From: Arctopsyche grandis | Taxonomy: Eukaryota; Arthropoda; Insecta; Trichoptera; Hydropsychidae | Direction of reading: 5' to 3' | DNA length: 64,000 bases | NCBI RefSeq assembly: GCF_051622035.1 | Contig: NC_135364.1 | Span: 1,755,001-1,819,000 of the forward strand | Notes under the pieces: model-generated | What the model was told of the DNA's origin: nothing | Databases searched by the model: none | What the model saw: the letters and a program-made list of their open reading frames with translations, nothing else | In this document: in pieces, positions 8,511 to 54,407 of the stretch | How positions within the stretch are numbered: position 1 is the first letter of the stretch | Layout: each line of letters opens with the position of its first letter | Position numbers and translations under genes: made by a program

Positions 8511-8562
8511 TTTATTCAAAGTCTCTTTCGAATTTTTATATTAGATTTACTAATTTTAGTCA

Positions 8563-11656: not shown

Positions 11657-12650
11657 TCTTTTTATTTTATTTTTATTTTTATTTTATTAATTGAAAAATC
11701 AACAGACAGGATGTACATAGATATGTATAAAAAAAAACAAAAAGTAAATAAATAATATATGTAACATCCGAGTCCAATAATAGATTTTTACAAAAATGAA
11801 AAAGATAAATATAAGGACAACAAATTAAAAAGTAAAGAATAAAGGCATGACAAAATATGTAGAACATTGCATAATTAAACTATAGTATTAAAATATTTGG
11901 AAAAGTTTATAAAATATAATATAAGAAGAAATTGAAATTTACAAATATAAAACAAATGAAAAAGGTAAATACAAAATAAACAAATGAAAAGGAAAAGAAT
12001 GAAAGCTATAATATGATTAAATAGCACATTACATAACTAAACTAAAGTATAAAAATATTGGAAATATTGGAAAAATAGAATAGGAGAAAAAATGAATCAA
12101 TCGGTCAAGATTCTCTTGATGTTAGACCTGAATTGATGTAGGGAAATACCAAACAGATCAACCTCATTCAGCTCTCCGTTAAACATACGATAAACGCGCT
12201 GCAGATAAGAATATTTTTGGGAATTAGTAGTGAAAAGAGTGCAACGCGTCTAGAGTACCGAACTGGGATTCTGAAATTAACCTTATTCAGTAAATCAGAA
12301 CAATCAAGGAAACCATTTATGAGCTTAAAGAAGAATATAGCATCAGTATGTCGTCGCCTGACAGAAAGATTGTTAAAAGAAAGGATTTTTAAAATGTCGG
12401 AAACAGTAGAATGGGTATAGGTAGGAAAAAGGTAGCGTAAGGATTTAATAAATTTAAGTTGAACTTTCTCAATACAATTAATATGGGATAAATAAAAAGG
12501 TGACCAGATAATTGAGGCAAATTCAAGGTGAGACCTTACAAAGGAAAAATAAAGTAATTTTAGTACATAAGGATCATTAAAGGGTTTTGTTGAGCGGAGT
12601 AGGAATCCAAGAGATTTAAATGCTTTGTTGTTAATAAAAGAAATATGTTC
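11657..12650 (-). pseudogene. Jockey-like LINE J1, copy 1 (3' part)
   Basis: Minus-strand copy holding only the last third of the RT ORF and the 3' UTR, ending in a T/A-rich tail with TAAAA repeats. Compared with copy 3 (51874-54407) it has lost about 13 bp near 12232, which shifts the frame near the C-terminus. It is 5' truncated at about 12650. It also provides an uninterrupted version of the site where the Helitron inserted in copy 2: ATTTACAAATATAAAAC at about 11937. Confidence 0.9.

Positions 12651-23299: not shown

Positions 23300-23370
<71 letters not shown>
23300..23370. repeat. (TA)n microsatellite
   Basis: About 70 bases of TA repeat followed by TATG/TACA variants. Confidence 0.95.
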
Positions 23371-23384
<14 letters not shown>

Positions 23385-23463
23385 CATATTAAGTAAAATG
23401 GCTGAAATTTGACGATTCCAGATAAATTACTAGAAATACAATTTGTGCAAATAAATAAATAAT

Positions 23464-23818
23464 GAGCTATTTAATCATATTATAGCTTTCATTCTTTTCC
23501 TTTTCATTTGTTTATTTTGTATTTACCTTTTTCATTTGTTTTATATTTGTAAATTTCAATTTCTTCTTATATTCTATTTTATAACCTTTTCCCAATATTT
23601 TAATACTATAGTTTAATTATGCAATGTTCTACATATTTTGTCATGCCTTTATTCTTTACTTTTTAATTTGTTTTCCTTATATTTATCTTTTTCATTTTTG
23701 TAAAAATCTGTTATTGGACTCGGATGTTACATATATTATTTATTTACTATTTGTTTTTTTATACATATCTATGTACATCCTGTCTGTTAATTTTTCAATT
23801 AATAAAATAAAATAAAAA
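23464..23818 (+). repeat. 3' UTR fragment of LINE J1
   Basis: Matches the 3' UTR of J1 in the opposite orientation to the three long copies: AGCTATTTAATCATATTATA, then TGGACTCGGATGTTAC and CATCCTGTCTGTTAATTTTTC, ending in an AATAAAATAAAAT tail at the high-coordinate end, as expected for a plus-strand insertion. No coding part remains. Confidence 0.8.
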
Positions 23819-24275
23819 ATCAAATAGACTATTTATATACTGTAAACATATTTTTTTATGAATCGTGTTATATAAAGAAATATTTAGACGAGCCATGAAA
23901 AAGTGCGCAAACTAAAGATAAAGGCAAAATATCAACCTATACCTACATATATGTATTATAATATATATAAAATTATAAAATTGATAAATGTATTATATAT
24001 TATTGATATATGTATGTATGTACTACATATATGTATTATAATACATATAAAATTGAATGCCTTTCATTCTGTATGTTTCTTAATAACTCTAAACCACTTG
24101 ATCGAATTTGGTCCGAATTTTTCATACATACATAGTTATATATTATGATCGAGAAAAAACAGACAACAGTTCAAATAATATGAGAACAGTAATATAGGGG
24201 AAGAAAAAATGAAAATGTTATAAAGTACAAGATTTTTTTTTATAAAGTACATAAACTTATTTGAAAGCAATATAT
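23819..24275. other. Intergenic DNA with a possible Helitron-like motif
   Basis: CATATAAAATTGAATGCC followed by ACTCTAAACCACTTGATCG (about 24046-24105) resembles the subterminal motif at 21877. Otherwise AT-rich with TATG repeats. Confidence 0.35.
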
Positions 24276-32682: not shown

Positions 32683-32709
<27 letters not shown>

Positions 32710-33009
32710 ATTTTATTAATTGAAAAATCAACAGACAGGATGTACAGAGATAGGTATAAAAAAAACAAAAAGTAAATAAATAATATATGTAACATCCGAG
32801 TCCAATAATAGATTTTTACAAAAATGAAAAAGATAAATATAAGGAAAACAAATTAAAAAGTAAAGAATAAAGGCATGACAAAATATGTAGTACATTGCAT
32901 AATTAAACTATAGTAATATAAGAAGAAATTGAAATTTACAAATCTAATCTATAATTTGGAAAGAGACTTTGTATGTAAGTATCCTTGGTGTATCCTTTGT
33001 ATGTAAGTA

Positions 33010-34872
33010 TCCCCATGGGGCCCCGAAGGGGGCGCAGGGGGGCGCAGCCTCATGGGGCGAAGCCCCATGGGGCGCAGCCTTATGAGGCGAAGCCCTAAAA
33101 GGCAACTGATCATGGGGGCGAAGCCTTAGACGGCATTTAATCATGGGGGCGCGGAGGGGCGAAGCCCTAAAAGGCATTAGCTAAGGGGGGCGAAGCCCTA
33201 AGCGGCATTTAATAATGGGGGCGCGGAGGGGCGAAGCCCTAAAAGGCAACTGATCATGGGGGCGAAGCCTTAGACGGCATTTAATCATGGGGGCGCGGAG
33301 GGGCGAAGCCCTAAAAGGCATAAACTAAGGGGGGCGAAGCCCTAAACGGCAATTAATCTTGTGGGCGCGGGGGGGCGAAGCCCTAAAAGGCATTAACTAA
33401 GGGGAGCGAAGCCCTAAACGGCATTTAATAATGGGGGCGCAGAGGGGCGAAGCCCCAAAAGGCATTAGCTAAGGGGGGCGAAGCCCTAAACGGCAATTAA
33501 TCTTGGGGGCGCGGGGGGGCGAAGCCCTAAAAGGCATTAACTAAGGGGGGCGAAGCCCTAAACGGCATTTAATAATGGGGGCGCGGAGGGGCGAAGCCCT
33601 AAAAGGCAACTGATCATGGGGGCGAAGCCCTAGACGGCATTTAATCATGGGGGTGCGGAGGGGCGAAGCCCCAAAAGGCATAAGCTAAGGGGAGCGAAGC
33701 CCTAAACGGCATTTAATAATGGGGGCGCGGAGGGGCGAAGCCCTAAAAGGCAACTGATAATGGGGGCGAAGCCCTAGACGGCAATTAACCATGGGGACGT
33801 GGAGGGGCGAAGCCCTAAAAGGCATTAACTAAGGGGGGCGAAGCCCTAGACGGCATTTAATCATGGGGGCGCGGAGGGGCGAAGCCCTAAAAAGCAACTG
33901 ATCATGGGGGCGAAGCCCTAAACGGTAATTGCTCATGGGGGCGTGGAGGGGCGAAGCTCTAGAAGGCAAAGGCTCAGGGGGGCGCCGAGGGCGGAGCCCT
34001 AGAAGGCAAAAAAAATTTTTTGGCGAAGCCCTAAAAGGCATTAACTAAGGGGGGCGAAGCCCTAAACGGCAATTAATAATTGGGGCGCAGAGGGGCGAAG
34101 CCCCAAAAGGCAACTGATAATGGGGGCGAAGCCCTAGACGTCAATTAACCATGGGGACGTGGAGGGGCGAAGCCCTTATCGGCACCTGATCATGGGGGCG
34201 AAGCCCTAGATGGCATTTAATCATGGGGGCGCGGAGGGGCGAAGCCCTAATAGGCATTTACTAAGGGGGGCGAAGCCCTAGATGGCAATTAACCATGGGG
34301 ACGTGGAGGGGCGAAGCCCTAAAAGGCATTAACTAAGGGGGGCGAAGCCCTAGACGGCATTTAATCATGGGGGCGCGGAGGGGCGAAGCCCTAAAAGGCA
34401 ACTGATCATGGGGGCGAAGCCCTAAACGGCAATTAAACTTGGGGGCGCGGGGGGCGAAGCCCTAAAAGGCATTAACTAAGGGGGGCGAAGCCCTAGACGG
34501 CATTTAATCATGGGGGTGCGGAGGGGCGAAGCCCTAAAAGGCAACTGATCATGGGGGCGAAGCCTTAGACGGCATTTAATCATGGGGGCGCGGAGGGGCG
34601 AAGCCCTAAAAGGCATTAACTAAGGGGGGCGAAGCCCTAAACGGCAATTAATCTTGGGGGCGCGGGGGGCGAAGCCCTAAAAGGCATTAACTAAGGGGGG
34701 CGAAGCCCTAGACGGCATTTAATCATGGGGGCGCGGAGGGGCGAAGCCCTAAAAGGCAACCGATCATGGGGGCGAAGCCCTAAACGGCAATTGCTCATGG
34801 GGGCGTGGAGGGGCGAAGCCCTAGAAGGCAAAGGCTCAGGGGGGCGCTGAGGGCGGAGCCCTAGAAGGCAAA
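33010..34872 (+). repeat. GC-rich GCGAAGC hairpin array inside the Helitron
   Basis: About 1.86 kb of alternating units of roughly 30-38 bases: a GGGGGCGAAGCCCTARACGGC type and a GGCGCGGAGGGGCGAAGCCC type, separated by AT-rich links such as ATTTAATCATG and ATTAACTAAG. By eye the heptamer GCGAAGC occurs about 49 times, all on the plus strand. Each sits in GGGCGAAGCCC, which can fold as a short stem with a GAA loop. Two blocks end in the same module (AAAGGCTCAGGGGGGCGC) at about 33967 and 34820, indicating a higher-order duplication of about 855 bp. Apparent reading frames here (for example 32944-33177) are repeat translations. Confidence 0.95.
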
Positions 34873-34980
34873 TTTTTTTTTTTTATTTTTTAAAAAAAAT
34901 TTTTTGATTTTATTTTTATATATATATATTATATATTTTTTTTTTTTTTTTTTTTTTAATGTTTACTATTAGCTTAGTCA
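34873..34980. repeat. Poly-T / AT-rich tract between array and Helitron 3' end
   Basis: Long T runs and a short TA run close the array before the terminal 50 bases of the Helitron. Confidence 0.8.
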
Positions 34981-36404
34981 TGTTAAAGCGGTTTATATTA
35001 TAAACACTGAGCGAAGCCGGGTAATACAGCTAGTATAAAATAAATGAAAAAGGTAAATACAAAATAAACAAATGAAAAGGAAAAGAATGAAAGCTATAAT
35101 ATGATTAAATAGCACATTACATAACTAAACTAAAGTATAAAAATATTGGAAATATTCTATTAAAAGATTCTCTTGATGTTAGACCTGAATTGATGTAGGG
35201 AAATACCACACAGATCAACCTCATTCAGCTCTCCGTTAAACATACGATAAACGCGCTGCAGATAAAAATATTTTTGGGAATTAATATTGAAAGGATCAAG
35301 TGAAAAGAGTGCAACGCGTCTAGAGTATCGAACTGGGATTCTGAAATTAACCTTATTCAGTAAATCAGAACAATCAAGGAAACCATTTATGAGCTTAAAG
35401 AAGAATATAGCATCAGTATGTCGTCGCCTGACAGAAAGATTGTTAAAAGAAAGGATTTTTAAAATGTCGGAAACAGTAGAATGGGTATAGGTAGGAAAAA
35501 GGTAGCGTAAGGATTTAATAAATTTAAGTTGAACTTTCTCAATACAATTAATATGGGATAAATAAAAAGGTGACCAGATAATTCAGGCAAATTCAAGGTG
35601 AGACCTTACAAAGGAAAAATAAAGTAATTTTAGTACATAAGGATCATTAAAGGGTTTTGTTGAGCGGAGTAGGAATCCAAGAGATTTAAATGCTTTGTTG
35701 GTAATAAAAGAAATATGTTCAGAGAAATCTAGTTTATTATTGAGTATTACACCAAGATCTTTAATAGAAGATGACGTGTTAAGGATTGAATGATTTAATT
35801 GATATTGATTAGTAATAATTGACTTATTTCTAGTGAAATTTAAAATAGAGCATTTTTCTAGATTAATAAAAAGATCATTATTTAAACAATATATAGAGAA
35901 TCTATCTAGATCTTCTTGTATCTTATGACAATCGTCTATGGTGTATATATGTAGGTTTGTAAATTTTTAAATCATCAGCGTAAAGAAGTATAAAGGAATG
36001 TTTGAAGATGTATGAGATATCATTAATATAGAGTAAAAAGAATAAGGGACCTAAATGCGACCCTTGTGGGACACCGGAAGGAATATGTCTAAGTGATGAT
36101 CTAAAACCATTGAGAATTATGATTTGGTGACGATTTAGTATATACGAAGAGATTCAACGAAATAAATTTCCTCGGATTTCGAGGGACCAAAGTTTATTGA
36201 GTAATAGGTTGTGATTGATTTTATCAAAAGCTTTAGAGAAATCCGTATAAACGACGTCTATTTGGATTCGTTTGTCCATATAAGATGTGAGAGTACTAGT
36301 GAAATTAAGCAGGTTAGTCTCTACCGATCTCCCCTTAAAAAAACCATGTTGTTCAGGTATAATGTAGTTTTTGAAATTGGAGAAAAGGAAATTATAGATA
36401 ATTT

Positions 36405-51865: not shown

Positions 51866-51873
51866 TTTTAATT

Positions 51874-54407
51874 TTATTTTATTTTATTTTATTTTATTAA
51901 TTGAAAAATCAACAGACAGGATGAACAGAGATAGGTATAAAAAAAACAAAAAGTAAATAAATAATATATGTAACATCCGAGTCCAATAATAGATTTTTAC
52001 AAAAATGAAAAAGATAAATATAAGGAAAACAAATTAAAAAGTAAAGAATAAAGGCATGACAAAATATGTAGTACATTGCATAATTAAACTATAGTATTAA
52101 AATATTTGGAAAAGGTTATAAGATAGAATATAAGAAGAAATTGAAATTTACAAACATAAAACATATGAAAAAGGTAAATACAAAATAAAAAAATAAAAAA
52201 GGAAAGGAATGAAAGCTATAATATGATTAAATAGCACATTACATAACTAAACTAAAGTATAAAAATAATGGAAATATTGGAAAAATAGAATAGGAGAAAA
52301 AATGAATCAATCGGTCAAGATTCTCTTGATGTTAGACCTGAATTGATGTAGGGAAATACCAAACCGATCAACCTCATTCAGCTCTCCGTTAAACATACGA
52401 TAAACGCGCTCCAGATAAAAATATTTTTGGGAATTAGTATTGAAAGGATCAAGTGAAAAGAGTGCAACGCGTCTAGAGTATCGAACTGGGATTCTGAAAT
52501 TAACCTTATTCAGTAAATCAGAACAATCAAGGAAACCATTTATGAGCTTAAAGAAGAATATAGCATCAGTATGTCGTCGCCTGACAGAAAGATTGTTAAA
52601 AGAAAGGATTTTTAAAATGTCGGAAACAGTAGAATGGGTATAGGTAGGAAAAAGGTAGCGTAAGGATTTAATAAATTTAAGTTGAACTTTCTCAATACAA
52701 TTAATATGGGATAAATAAAAAGGTGACCAGATAATTGAGGCAAATTCAAGGTGAGACCTTACAAAGGAAAAATAAAGTAATTTTAGTACATAAGGATCAT
52801 TAAAGGGTTTTGTTGAGCGGAGTAGGAATCCAAGAGATTTAAATGCTTTGTTGGTAATAAAAGAAATATGTTCAGAGAAATCTAGTTTATTATTGAGTAT
52901 TACACCAAGATCTTTAATAGAAGATGACGTGTTAAGGATTGAATGATTTAATTGATATTGATTAGTTATAATTGACTTATTTCTAGTGAAATTTAAAATA
53001 GAGCATTTTTCTAGATTAATAAAAAGATCATTATTTAAACAATATATAGAGAATCTATCTAGATCTTCTTGTATCTTATGACAATCGTCTATGGTGTATA
53101 TAGGTTTGTAAATTTTTAAATCATCAGCGTAAAGAAGTATAAAGGAATATTTAAAGATGTATGAGATATCATTAATATAGAGTAAAAAGAATAAGAGACC
53201 TAAATGCGACCCTTGTGGGACACCGGAAGGAATATGTCTAAGTGATGATCTAAAACCATTGAGAATTATGATTTGGTGACGATTTAGTATATACGAAGAG
53301 ATCCAACGAAATAAATTTCCTCGGATTCCGAGGGACCAAAGTTTATTGAGTAATAGGTTGTGATTGATTTTATCAAAAGCTTTAGAGAAATCCGTATAAA
53401 CGACGTCTATTTGGATTCGTTTGTCCATATAAGATGTGAGAGTACTAGTGAAATTAAGCAGGTTAGTCTCTACCGATCTCCCCTTAAAAAAACCATGCTG
53501 TTCAGGTATAATGTAGTTTTTAAAATTGGAGAAAAGGAAATTATAGATAATTTTTTCAAAGATTTTACTAATGACAGATAGTTTAGATATAGGACGGTAA
53601 TTCTCAATAAGATTCTTATCACCTTTTTTAAAAATAGGGGCGATGTAAGATAATTTCCAATAGTCAGGAAATTTACCGTTAGACATAGAAAGATTGAAAA
53701 GGATTGTTATGGGAAGAGATAATGGGACAGCACATTTAACAAGGAAAAAAGAAGGCAAACCATCACAGCCCGCACCAAGATTAACATTGAGAGAGTTGAT
53801 GTGACTGAGTACAGTAGATAAGTCAAAATCAAAAGTAGATAAGTTACAAGAAGAAGTATCTGTATTAGAGATAGAAAGGTTAATGGTAGAATCACTATTG
53901 AAAGTGGAGTCAAAATAGTCAGCAAAAATGGTACAGATTTCAGAACCATGTGAAGCCGACTTATTTCCATAATACATTACGGAAGGATATGAAGAGGAGG
54001 TATTTTTTTTTGAATTTATATAGGACCAAAATGATTTGGGATTAGTTTTAATATTATTTTGAATAAGAGAAATATAATTTCTAAAGCAGATTAAAGAATA
54101 TTTTTTAATTCGAGCTCTTAATAGTGAAAAACTTTGATAATCTAAGGGATTTGAATAAATTTTAAATTTTTATGGAATTTGTTTTTTTCTTTTATTATTT
54201 TAATAAGAGACGATGTAAACCAAGGGGGATATTTGGTACGTTTAGATTTAAGAGTAAAAGGGACGTGGCATTCAATAATATTTTGTAAGGTATCGTAAAA
54301 TTTTTTACAAGCTAAATCAATATTTAAATTGGACAAAAGTGAATTCCAATTGATATCGCTTAAAATTGGAATAATTGTAGCATAGTCAGCTTTTCTAAAG
54401 AGGAAAG
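51874..54407 (-). mobile_element. Jockey-like LINE J1, copy 3, with TTTTAATT duplication
   Basis: Minus-strand insertion in K2's upstream flank. TTTTAATT flanks it at 51866-51873 and 54408-54415. K3's flank has the unfilled site TTTTAATTACAATAATTATG near 62106. The element is 5' truncated within the linker before RT and ends 3' in repeated TAAAAT units. It is the longest J1 copy in the window. Confidence 0.85.

Follow-up and report, generated by a model that had tools for sequence, protein, structure and literature searches.

In canonical Helitrons, a 16-20-nt palindrome lies about 11 nt before the 3' end (available text of PMC4067079). In Helraiser, the 3' hairpin acts as the terminator, and changing its loop together with the closing pair was as costly as deleting it, while changes to the stem had a minor effect (available text of PMC4778049). 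DINE-1, HINE and Helentron elements (HINE-Cq, DINE-TR1 and Cg170-carrying elements), likewise non-autonomous and rolling-circle, contain a central tandem array, along with subterminal inverted repeats and a TT target; in the accessible parts of the two sources, these arrays are not described as same-strand hairpins (PMC4067079; PMC12628747). GNA mini-hairpins such as d(GCGAAGC), studied by Hirao, Yoshizawa and colleagues, appear in the literature considered here in chemistry, aptamer and biosensor papers; the melting temperature of GCGAAGC reaches up to 78 C, and GNA loops are members of its class (accessible part of PMC4686876). Short palindromes in many copies also occur as bacterial REP/BIME sequences, which reportedly have associated tyrosine transposases (PMC2817692).

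Here, we analyzed a 64,000-nt stretch of the Arctopsyche grandis genome (the window), which holds a Helitron that differs from Helibat and Helraiser in that its body is made of hairpin arrays and the hairpin nearest its end is a GNA-capped, 14-nt mini-hairpin with a bulged A. Its array units are identical in core and loop class to d(GCGAAGC) and the GNA mini-hairpins, which are seen here in nature, in extended arrays inside a transposon. Whereas REP/BIME sequences are prokaryotic and alternate in orientation, this family is eukaryotic and tandem, with a single orientation. Among the matches listed in the open-licence literature, none showed the same Helitron hairpin-array design.

The Helitron copy and its insertion site

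The element runs on the plus strand from TC at 32943 to CTAG at 35033 (2091 bp), and its ends, the lack of a target-site duplication and three empty sites confirm the Helitron that an earlier note on this DNA had placed there. It lies between A and T, and three paralogues of its target are uninterrupted in the window, reading A|T in two cases and A|C in one, again with no duplication: TTTACAAA|TATAAAA at 11946 (paralogue at 11660..12200, plus strand) and, on the other strand, at 23545 (23300..23830, minus strand), and TTTACAAA|CATAAAA at 52156 (51870..52420, plus strand). The repeated target, whose left and right parts flank the element at 32700..32942 and 35034..35300, is probably part of a non-LTR retrotransposon; an ORF with an RT domain (52307-54169) lies near one of the paralogues. 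The 5' terminal region (32943..33012, plus strand), which begins with TCTAATCTATAATTTGGAAAGAGACTTTG, served as a BLAST query. No ORF of at least 150 aa is present between 33 and 35 kb of the window; a coding array was therefore rejected, and this non-autonomous copy has no coding capacity.

The window contains 50 GCGAAGC motifs, always on the plus strand (expected 2.17, sd 1.58; maximum of 8 in 100 shuffles), with 49 occurrences at 33057-34819 and one at 35011-35017, matching the earlier count of about 49 plus one at the 3' end. The accompanying statement that each lies inside GGGCGAAGCCC was true for only 41 of the 49. As tandem-repeat copies necessarily share a strand, the 49 motifs do not represent 49 independent strand choices. 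The GAA-loop hairpins form an array (33086..34872, plus strand) in which units of 31 and 40/41 bp alternate, yielding a 72-bp dimer. Upstream, a mixture of GNA hairpins occupies 33018..33085 on the plus strand (CCCC-GAA-GGGG, GCGCAGC at 33042 and 33072, and ATGGGGC-GAA-GCCCCAT), which we read, from the presence of two arrays in relatives, as what is left of the GCA-loop array that other copies have on the 5' side. Within the array, 33950..34021 (plus strand) contains a second copy of the array-end units together with an A/T run, resembling 34812-34880 at a shift of 862, and is read as the trace of an internal duplication or of the fusion of two arrays. A T-rich stretch (34873..34959, plus strand) separates the array from the 3' terminus.

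The predicted GCGAAGC hairpin at the 3' end was found as a GNA-capped structure at 35007..35020 on the plus strand, with the hand-drawn pairing CTG(a)GC-GAA-GCCGG; it stands 9 nt ahead of CTAG and ends 13 nt from the element end. Its stem reads CTG or CCG in 57 of 60 sampled ends and CCA in the other three. An AT-rich hairpin, GTTTAT-ATT-ATAAAC (34991..35005, plus strand; 15 nt, from sequence and fold), located 24 nt ahead of CTAG and 28 nt from the element end, is a second candidate for the terminal hairpin. The final 74 nt of the element are not predicted to fold more strongly than shuffles (z 0.40). CTAG itself (35030..35033, plus strand) is followed by T in 59/60 sampled copies. None of 912 array GCGAAGC motifs examined has CTAG at the 12-nt offset of the true end, indicating that hairpins within the arrays do not serve as additional terminators; CTAG is found at offset 1 in 255 of them, at offset 15 in 16, and nowhere within 20 nt in 641.

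A high-copy family with an array-bearing subfamily

The host assembly (475.7 Mb) contains 1594 exact matches to the 23-nt 3' end, and 956 of these ends are of the window's array-type variant, revealing a high-copy Helitron family with an array-bearing subfamily. An array is present behind 34 of 35 sampled CACTG-type ends; array-less copies, which make up 23 of 60 sampled copies, have multiplied too. The 3' 42-mers are identical in 34 of the 60 sampled ends, those of array copies being far more uniform than the rest. A match to the 5' region was detected at most 6 kb upstream of 42 of the 60 sampled 3' ends; 40 of these matches begin with TCT and 37 are distinct. The base preceding the distinct 5' ends is A in 27 cases, G in seven and T in only three, so the TT target of Helentron and HINE elements does not apply. 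TC and CTAG ends recur in the genome copies, in line with the TC and CTRR ends of canonical Helitrons, as is A/T insertion without target-site duplication.

Six of the seven G-preceded 5' ends directly follow the CTAG of a neighboring copy, head to tail. An origin of such tandem copies as rolling-circle concatemers was rejected: of five adjacent complete pairs, one shows no difference in the first 350 bp and the remaining four differ as much as random pairs, so that insertion into the A|TC site of the resident copy is the better explanation. The genome has 16 Helitron_like_N matches on five contigs; three of these places, read in part, lacked this 3' end, and no RepHel partner carrying the family's ends came to light. 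A phage, plasmid or viral origin was likewise rejected, the element being unmatched in phages and plasmids and its 3' end and array unit having no match as exact patterns in IMG/VR; viral contigs contained 13 stretches with two GGGCGAAGCCC, compared to eight and eight for two control loops, which is no clear excess.

Two arrays in fixed order are present in each of the 26 sampled array copies for which a 5' end was detected, the first of GCA-capped hairpins (6-26 GCGCAGC per sampled copy), the second of GAA-capped ones (13-55 GCGAAGC); the comparison of unit numbers suggested in the earlier note thus revealed wide variation between copies. A body of same-strand GCGAAGC hairpins, as that note described it, is accurate for the window, but the typical member adds a GCA array, and the window copy is an atypical member that keeps only a remnant of it. 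The array hairpins lie nearly all on the TC-to-CTAG strand, as had been claimed, and GCTTCGC is missing in 57 of 60 sampled copies.

Conservation and folding of the array units

Across 36 complete or incomplete array copies, GNA caps 1301 of 1572 GC-rich triloop stems and TNC caps none (271 other), with 11 distinct GNA stem-and-loop types, no TNC type and 16 other types. The GGGC stem carries all four GNA loops, and the GNA-capped stems include GGGC, CCCC, GCCC, GGCC, TGCC and CGCC, none of which occurs with TNC; triloop stems in the rest of the window comprise two GNA, one TNC and nine other. In the sequence scan, the array hairpins are C-GNA-G triloops closed on a GC stem, as expected of GNA DNA mini-hairpins. 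A non-GNA variant, GGGGCCCAGCC, was amplified as well (160 in 27 copies). In arrays picked and bounded by GGCGAAGCC, a choice that favors core conservation, variants at a frequency of at least 2% affect 0 of 14 columns of the GCGAAGC core versus 31 of 58 others. For rare variants, the core shows no significant deficit (0.0046 per base versus 0.0073 elsewhere, p 0.14), and when the comparison is confined to G/C columns, p is only 0.04.

These numbers bear on the reading that the arrays are passive minisatellites, that is, ordinary tandem repeats expanded within the Helitron by slippage or recombination and carried along, with GNA loops and strand uniformity reflecting founder units and duplication. 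We grant this reading the same chance as the explanation favored below, short of calling it probable. It agrees with the rare-variant rates, the wide range of GAA unit numbers, the internal duplication in the window array, the abundance of array-less copies and the tandem arrays known within Helitrons and Helentrons (accessible parts of PMC12628747 and PMC4067079), and a 15-base GGC period could be the relic of a 15-bp founder, for example GGGGCGCAGCCTTAT in L076. It accounts less well for the lack of common variants in the core, for several different stems carrying GNA caps but never TNC, and for the far more uniform ends of array copies.

The invariant extends beyond the hairpin. GGC-GNA-GCC-N6-GGC accounts for 1233 of 1270 GNA hairpins in the 36 copies, N6-GGC following 860/866 GAA and 359/390 GCA hairpins although the two arrays otherwise differ; it also follows 47 of the 50 GGCGNAGCC within the window element and 13 of 22 GNA hairpins in 11 short copies, and the GGC columns are invariant next to variable spacers. 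Folding may thus not be the whole story, and the earlier hairpin-only idea, while capturing the hairpin, leaves the equally invariant GGC six bases on unexplained. What is conserved could instead be the whole module, as a protein-binding site or as a two-state hairpin in which GCC pairs either way. We consider this quite unlikely: 499 of 1732 GCC-N6-GGC in array copies lack a preceding GNA hairpin, showing that the module's halves are separable; the motif has no known protein here; and at the 3' end the hairpin is present but no GGC follows at N6 spacing.

The earlier note had further expected strong folding of one strand only. Under the standard DNA model, folding of the GAA array is slightly weaker than that of shuffles, and its two strands differ by as much as those of shuffles do, so standard folding failed to support a one-stranded structure. 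A strand difference appears only once a GNA bonus, lacking in the standard parameters, is put into the model (loop energies of 1.4 and -0.6 kcal/mol, both assumed values); predicted one-strand folding of the GAA array, the part of the expectation that survives, therefore depends on the additional stability that has been measured for GNA hairpins. The GCA array of relative L058 folds far more strongly than shuffles with no bonus (-116.7 versus -87.4, sd 4.8; three segments), but does so on the other strand as well (-99.2 versus -78.8, sd 4.5) and is hence not one-stranded. The GGC six bases on could also pair with the same GCC, competing with the mini-hairpin.

Origin and possible role of the arrays

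A derivation of the array from the 3' hairpin, as the earlier note envisaged, is suggested by sequence comparison, not proven. Between the present-day 72-mer and the 3' end, GCGAAGCC is all that is shared (p 0.14-0.20). A better fit to the short-type end is seen for modules taken from three short relatives that lack arrays (p 0.0005-0.024), but not for the window's own array-end unit (p 0.09-0.74; ten comparisons in all, p uncorrected). Helitrons can transduce flanking DNA (accessible part of PMC4778049), and a pre-existing satellite might have been captured in this way. We regard such a capture as highly improbable: 45 of 47 tested array ends (C1:0-19.47 Mb) run into the Helitron 3' end, with 38 array-end markers exact on the same strand, seven with 1-2 changes and none on the wrong strand, and short relatives hold single modules. 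The finding that would have spoken against the earlier idea, arrays lacking Helitron ends, thus did not arise among those tested, nearly all of which have such ends.

In the rolling-circle model proposed for Helraiser, the transposon strand is said to be peeled off as single-stranded DNA. On this basis we tentatively favor an explanation that may well be right, though we stop short of rating it probable: a GNA-hairpin module, with a possible relationship to the 3' hairpin found in older short copies, would have been amplified via slippage or template switching during the element's single-stranded stage. The emerging transposon strand would then fold into a row of mini-hairpins, most likely compacting and shielding the strand and slowing the helicase, and the module would be maintained because units losing it are not propagated. 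In a further reading, which we consider unlikely, the arrays would be a selected single-strand device, consisting of loop-recognized GNA hairpins multiplied on the transferred strand and folding instantly, so that the displaced DNA would be shielded, compact and paced by the helicase, and from which the terminator is distinguished only by CTAG at 9-12 nt. As GCC can also pair with the GGC six bases on, this device would perhaps have a built-in GCC/GGC switch; if the reading were true, the success of the array subfamily would follow from it.

Within one genome, natural copies with nearly identical ends range from none to 55 in their number of GAA hairpins, so that hairpin number can be compared with transposition, termination and head-to-tail insertion. 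The family bears on whether Helitron DNA is single-stranded in the cell, on how the 3' hairpin is read and on why Helitrons often carry tandem arrays. Here, a genome uses, or at least tolerates, the GNA motif in bulk, offering a natural case for asking if single-strand folding matters in Helitron transposition.

Insertion of the hairpin-bearing Helitron

GCGAAGC occurs 50 times in the window, against an expectation of about 2, and always on the plus strand. Forty-nine occurrences form an array of alternating 31- and 40/41-bp units (33057-34819) and the fiftieth (35011-35017) lies in the 3' end of a plus-strand, 2,091-bp Helitron running from TC at 32943 to CTAG at 35033, in agreement with the earlier note; the note's fixed longer sequence around each motif, GGGCGAAGCCC, surrounds 41 of the 49 and not the rest. 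The target is a repeated sequence, uninterrupted at three further window sites (11946, 52156 and, on the other strand, 23545), two of which carry TTTACAAA/TATAAAA and one TTTACAAA/CATAAAA. At the filled site, A precedes TC, T follows CTAG and nothing is duplicated. These empty sites directly demonstrate the proposed Helitron insertion with TC...CTAG ends.

A reverse-transcriptase ORF (52307-54169) lies near one paralogue, which suggests a non-LTR retrotransposon as the target. For another retroelement ORF in the window, the named relatives listed are insect proteins about 43-46% identical, better matches being unnamed, which points to a probable insect host. A further, solitary sequence resembling the family's 5' end (TCTAATATAAAAATTCGAAAGAGACTTTG) lies on the minus strand at 8524-8545. 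It precedes an AT repeat and a retroelement ORF, and pattern scanning returned no 3' end belonging to it.

An array-bearing family in the host genome

The window is C10:1755001-1819000 of the 475.7-Mb assembly G000. Exact matches to the 23-nt 3' end number 842 + 752 = 1,594 in this assembly, and a control pattern has none. Our sample comprised 48 loci, covering the first 60 of 100 3'-end matches listed, all on contig C1 and consecutive rather than random. A 5'-end match lay at most 6 kb away for 42 of the 60; 40 of these start with TCT, and the 37 distinct ends are preceded by A (27), G (7) or T (3), six of the seven G bases being the CTAG of a neighbouring copy. T directly follows the 3' end in 59 of 60 copies. 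GCTTCGC, the motif of the other strand, is absent from 57; the exceptions (two copies in locus L085, one in L094) lie where copies or arrays are inverted. In both loci, inverted family copies or arrays abut one another.

Counting copies with 8 or more GCGAAGC as array-bearing, 37 of 60 qualified, and every one has a 3' end of the ACTGAGCG type; among the 23 array-less copies, 20 have other types. Genome-wide, the array-type end (ATAAACACTGAGCG...CTAG) has 956 occurrences, and 34 of 35 CACTG-type ends in the sample accompany an array. The array-bearing subfamily looks young, since 34 of the 60 3' 42-mers sampled are the same; sampled array-less copies are diverse. Precise head-to-tail junctions (CTAG/TCTAATCTATAA) were found at 165 places in the assembly G000 (for example, C1:10461063-10468587; L079, L080; L083, L091). 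Since only one of five adjacent complete pairs is identical over the first 350 bp, most look like a second copy inserted at the resident's own A/TC site. The upstream copies in L087, L090 and L078 lack the final G, so that their terminal GCTA runs straight into TC.

A common sequence of the array end has 610 matches in the genome. Of the 47 matches listed, all on C1 up to 19.47 Mb, 38 are followed 112-286 bp downstream by an exact 3' end in the same orientation, and none has an exact 3' end on the opposite strand. In seven others the 3' end carries one or two changes (L078, L087, L090, L128, L131 and two in L130), and the last two lie in L129, whose array is cut short, and among the inverted arrays of L094. 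The counter-evidence named in the earlier note, arrays lacking Helitron ends, was thus not borne out in this sample.

A 5' end was detected for 26 array copies. These measure 1,216-3,039 bp (median 1,872) and all combine both hairpin kinds, with 13-55 GCGAAGC (median 23) and 6-26 GCGCAGC per copy. Their parts always follow one order: the 5' end, a GCA-loop array with a period of about 90 bp, the GAA-loop array (31 + 40/41 bp), a T-rich stretch, the 3' hairpin and finally CTAG. An element built almost entirely of GCGAAGC hairpins thus describes the window copy (49 GAA units, two GCGCAGC) but not the typical member. The window copy is unusual but not alone, because some array copies without a detected 5' end show GAA only in the stretch read: four of 11 (L051, L076, one in L079, L084), six having both kinds there and the remaining one being the inverted L094.

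Central tandem arrays are already known in non-autonomous Helitrons and Helentrons, according to parts of two reports (PMC4067079, PMC12628747). No description of same-strand GNA-hairpin arrays (loops GAA, GCA, GGA or GTA) in a Helitron came up among the open-licence papers searched. Tandem GNA mini-hairpin arrays (GGCGAAGCCCTAAT...) also occur in three of five bacterial contigs matched by pattern scan (Robiginitomaculum, Bacteroidales MAGs), at positions intergenic by eye (L046 5216-5294; L047 3224-3358; L049 3496-3648), and are possibly the same kind of repeat of independent origin. Elsewhere in the host, G000:C3:20710636-20738225 holds degraded Rep domains at an exact 9,032-bp spacing, with other transposons' fragments by eye in the stretch read. 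L098 (G000:C13:5357000-5362400) carries a RepHel-like gene in pieces, Helentron-like by eye, with C48-type peptidase- and endonuclease-like stretches also noted by eye; the 3' end of the present family is absent from this stretch.

Hairpin units: shared module, origin and folding

Scanning 36 array copies (L094 left out) for perfect GC-rich stems of at least 4 bp with 3-nt loops yielded 1,572 triloop stems (1,301 GNA, 0 of the complementary TNC, 271 other) in 11, 0 and 16 distinct stem-and-loop types, respectively; unit counts are not event counts, because many units descend from one another. The longest stem has 13 bp (AGCCTCATGGGGC-GCA-GCCCCATGAGGCT), and a non-GNA variant, CCA, was also amplified (160 in 27 copies). 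The identical scan of the window outside the element gave 2 GNA, 1 TNC and 9 other stems.

In these 36 copies, GGC lies exactly 6 nt past GGCGNAGCC in 1,233 of 1,270 cases (GAA 860/866, GCA 359/390, GGA 5/5, GTA 9/9), and in 13 of 22 in 11 short copies. As this spacing recurs in both GAA and GCA types, the module common to both arrays is GGC-GNA-GCC-N6-GGC. Its central GCC has two possible partners: pairing with one GGC forms the GNA mini-hairpin, and pairing with the other forms a 6-nt-loop hairpin. The module may also be a protein site, or its spacing may descend from a 15-bp founder repeat, of which the GGGGCGCAGCCTTAT run in L076 would be an example. There, a 545-bp copy, a possible simple ancestor of the units, has an array of about ten such 15-bp units and lies directly before a GAA array without its own 5' end. 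When GAA arrays (32.3 kb, 37 elements) were aligned to a cyclic 72-mer, 0 of 14 core columns versus 31 of 58 others were polymorphic at 2% or more (Fisher 0.00015; G/C columns only 0.037), p-values that are too good because neither columns nor units are independent and GGCGAAGCC served both to choose the arrays and to set their bounds. Rare variants per base were lower in the core (0.0046 versus 0.0073), a non-significant difference (p 0.14).

Amplification of the array from the 3' hairpin, as first proposed, is plausible from sequence likeness, though short of shown. In ten comparisons (2,000 single-letter shuffles, raw p), short-copy modules from L065 and L070 had ACCGA-(TG or GG)-GCGAAGCC in common with the short-type end (0.0005-0.008), and the L052 module CCGA-GG-GCGAAGCC (0.002-0.024); against the window-type end, the three gave 0.0025-0.11. 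In contrast, the present 72-mer has only GCGAAGCC in common with 3' ends (0.14-0.20), and the window's own array-end unit gave 0.09-0.74. Copies such as L130 contain roughly six units, each close to 40 bp, that include CCGAGGGCGAAGCCCTAG; in our reading, this could correspond to the 3' end CCGAGCGAAGCC...CTAG with the spacer removed.

Under standard DNA parameters, which hold no GNA bonus, GGGCGAAGCCC and its complement are equal in energy (-2.4), and the predicted fold of the GAA array is slightly weaker than that of dinucleotide shuffles (-40.8 versus -45.0), with the same strand difference as these. Excerpts of published work report that GCGAAGC melts at up to 78 C, naming GNA loops as the class (PMC4686876), and tabulate 76.5 C for a two-base-pair extraordinarily stable hairpin (PMC10527192). 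With an assumed GNA bonus, the plus strand of the GAA array moved beyond shuffles (loop energy 1.4: -51.1 versus -45.0, sd 4.5; loop energy -0.6: -69.5 versus -45.8, sd 4.7) and the minus strand did not. Both strands of the GCA array of L058 (three segments) folded far beyond shuffles with no bonus (-116.7 versus -87.4, sd 4.8; other strand -99.2 versus -78.8, sd 4.5). Strong folding in one strand only, as the earlier note expected, is thus confined to the GAA array under the assumed bonus.

Terminator and possible role of the array

In Helraiser, a reconstructed bat Helitron, the 3' hairpin is the terminator; according to the portions available of that report, a loop change (with the closing pair) acts about like deletion, a stem change keeps about 90% of activity, and terminator bypass leads to flank capture (PMC4778049). 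In the present family, CTAG follows GCGAAGC at an offset of 12 at the true end; for the other 912 GCGAAGC in 60 bodies, the offset is 1 in 255 and 15 in 16, with no CTAG within 20 nt in 641. The last GNA hairpin alone, then, has the terminal distance to CTAG in this family. An AT-rich hairpin of the window copy (34991-35005), with the loop ATT that is also named for Helraiser, is a second candidate for the real terminator and advises caution in giving GCGAAGC that name.

Because only the last GNA hairpin lies at the end's distance from CTAG, the array would fold as the terminator does, without being cut as the terminator is. Its hairpins might shield or pace the displaced strand, or the arrays might be pure passengers, and we hold these two readings to be evenly balanced.
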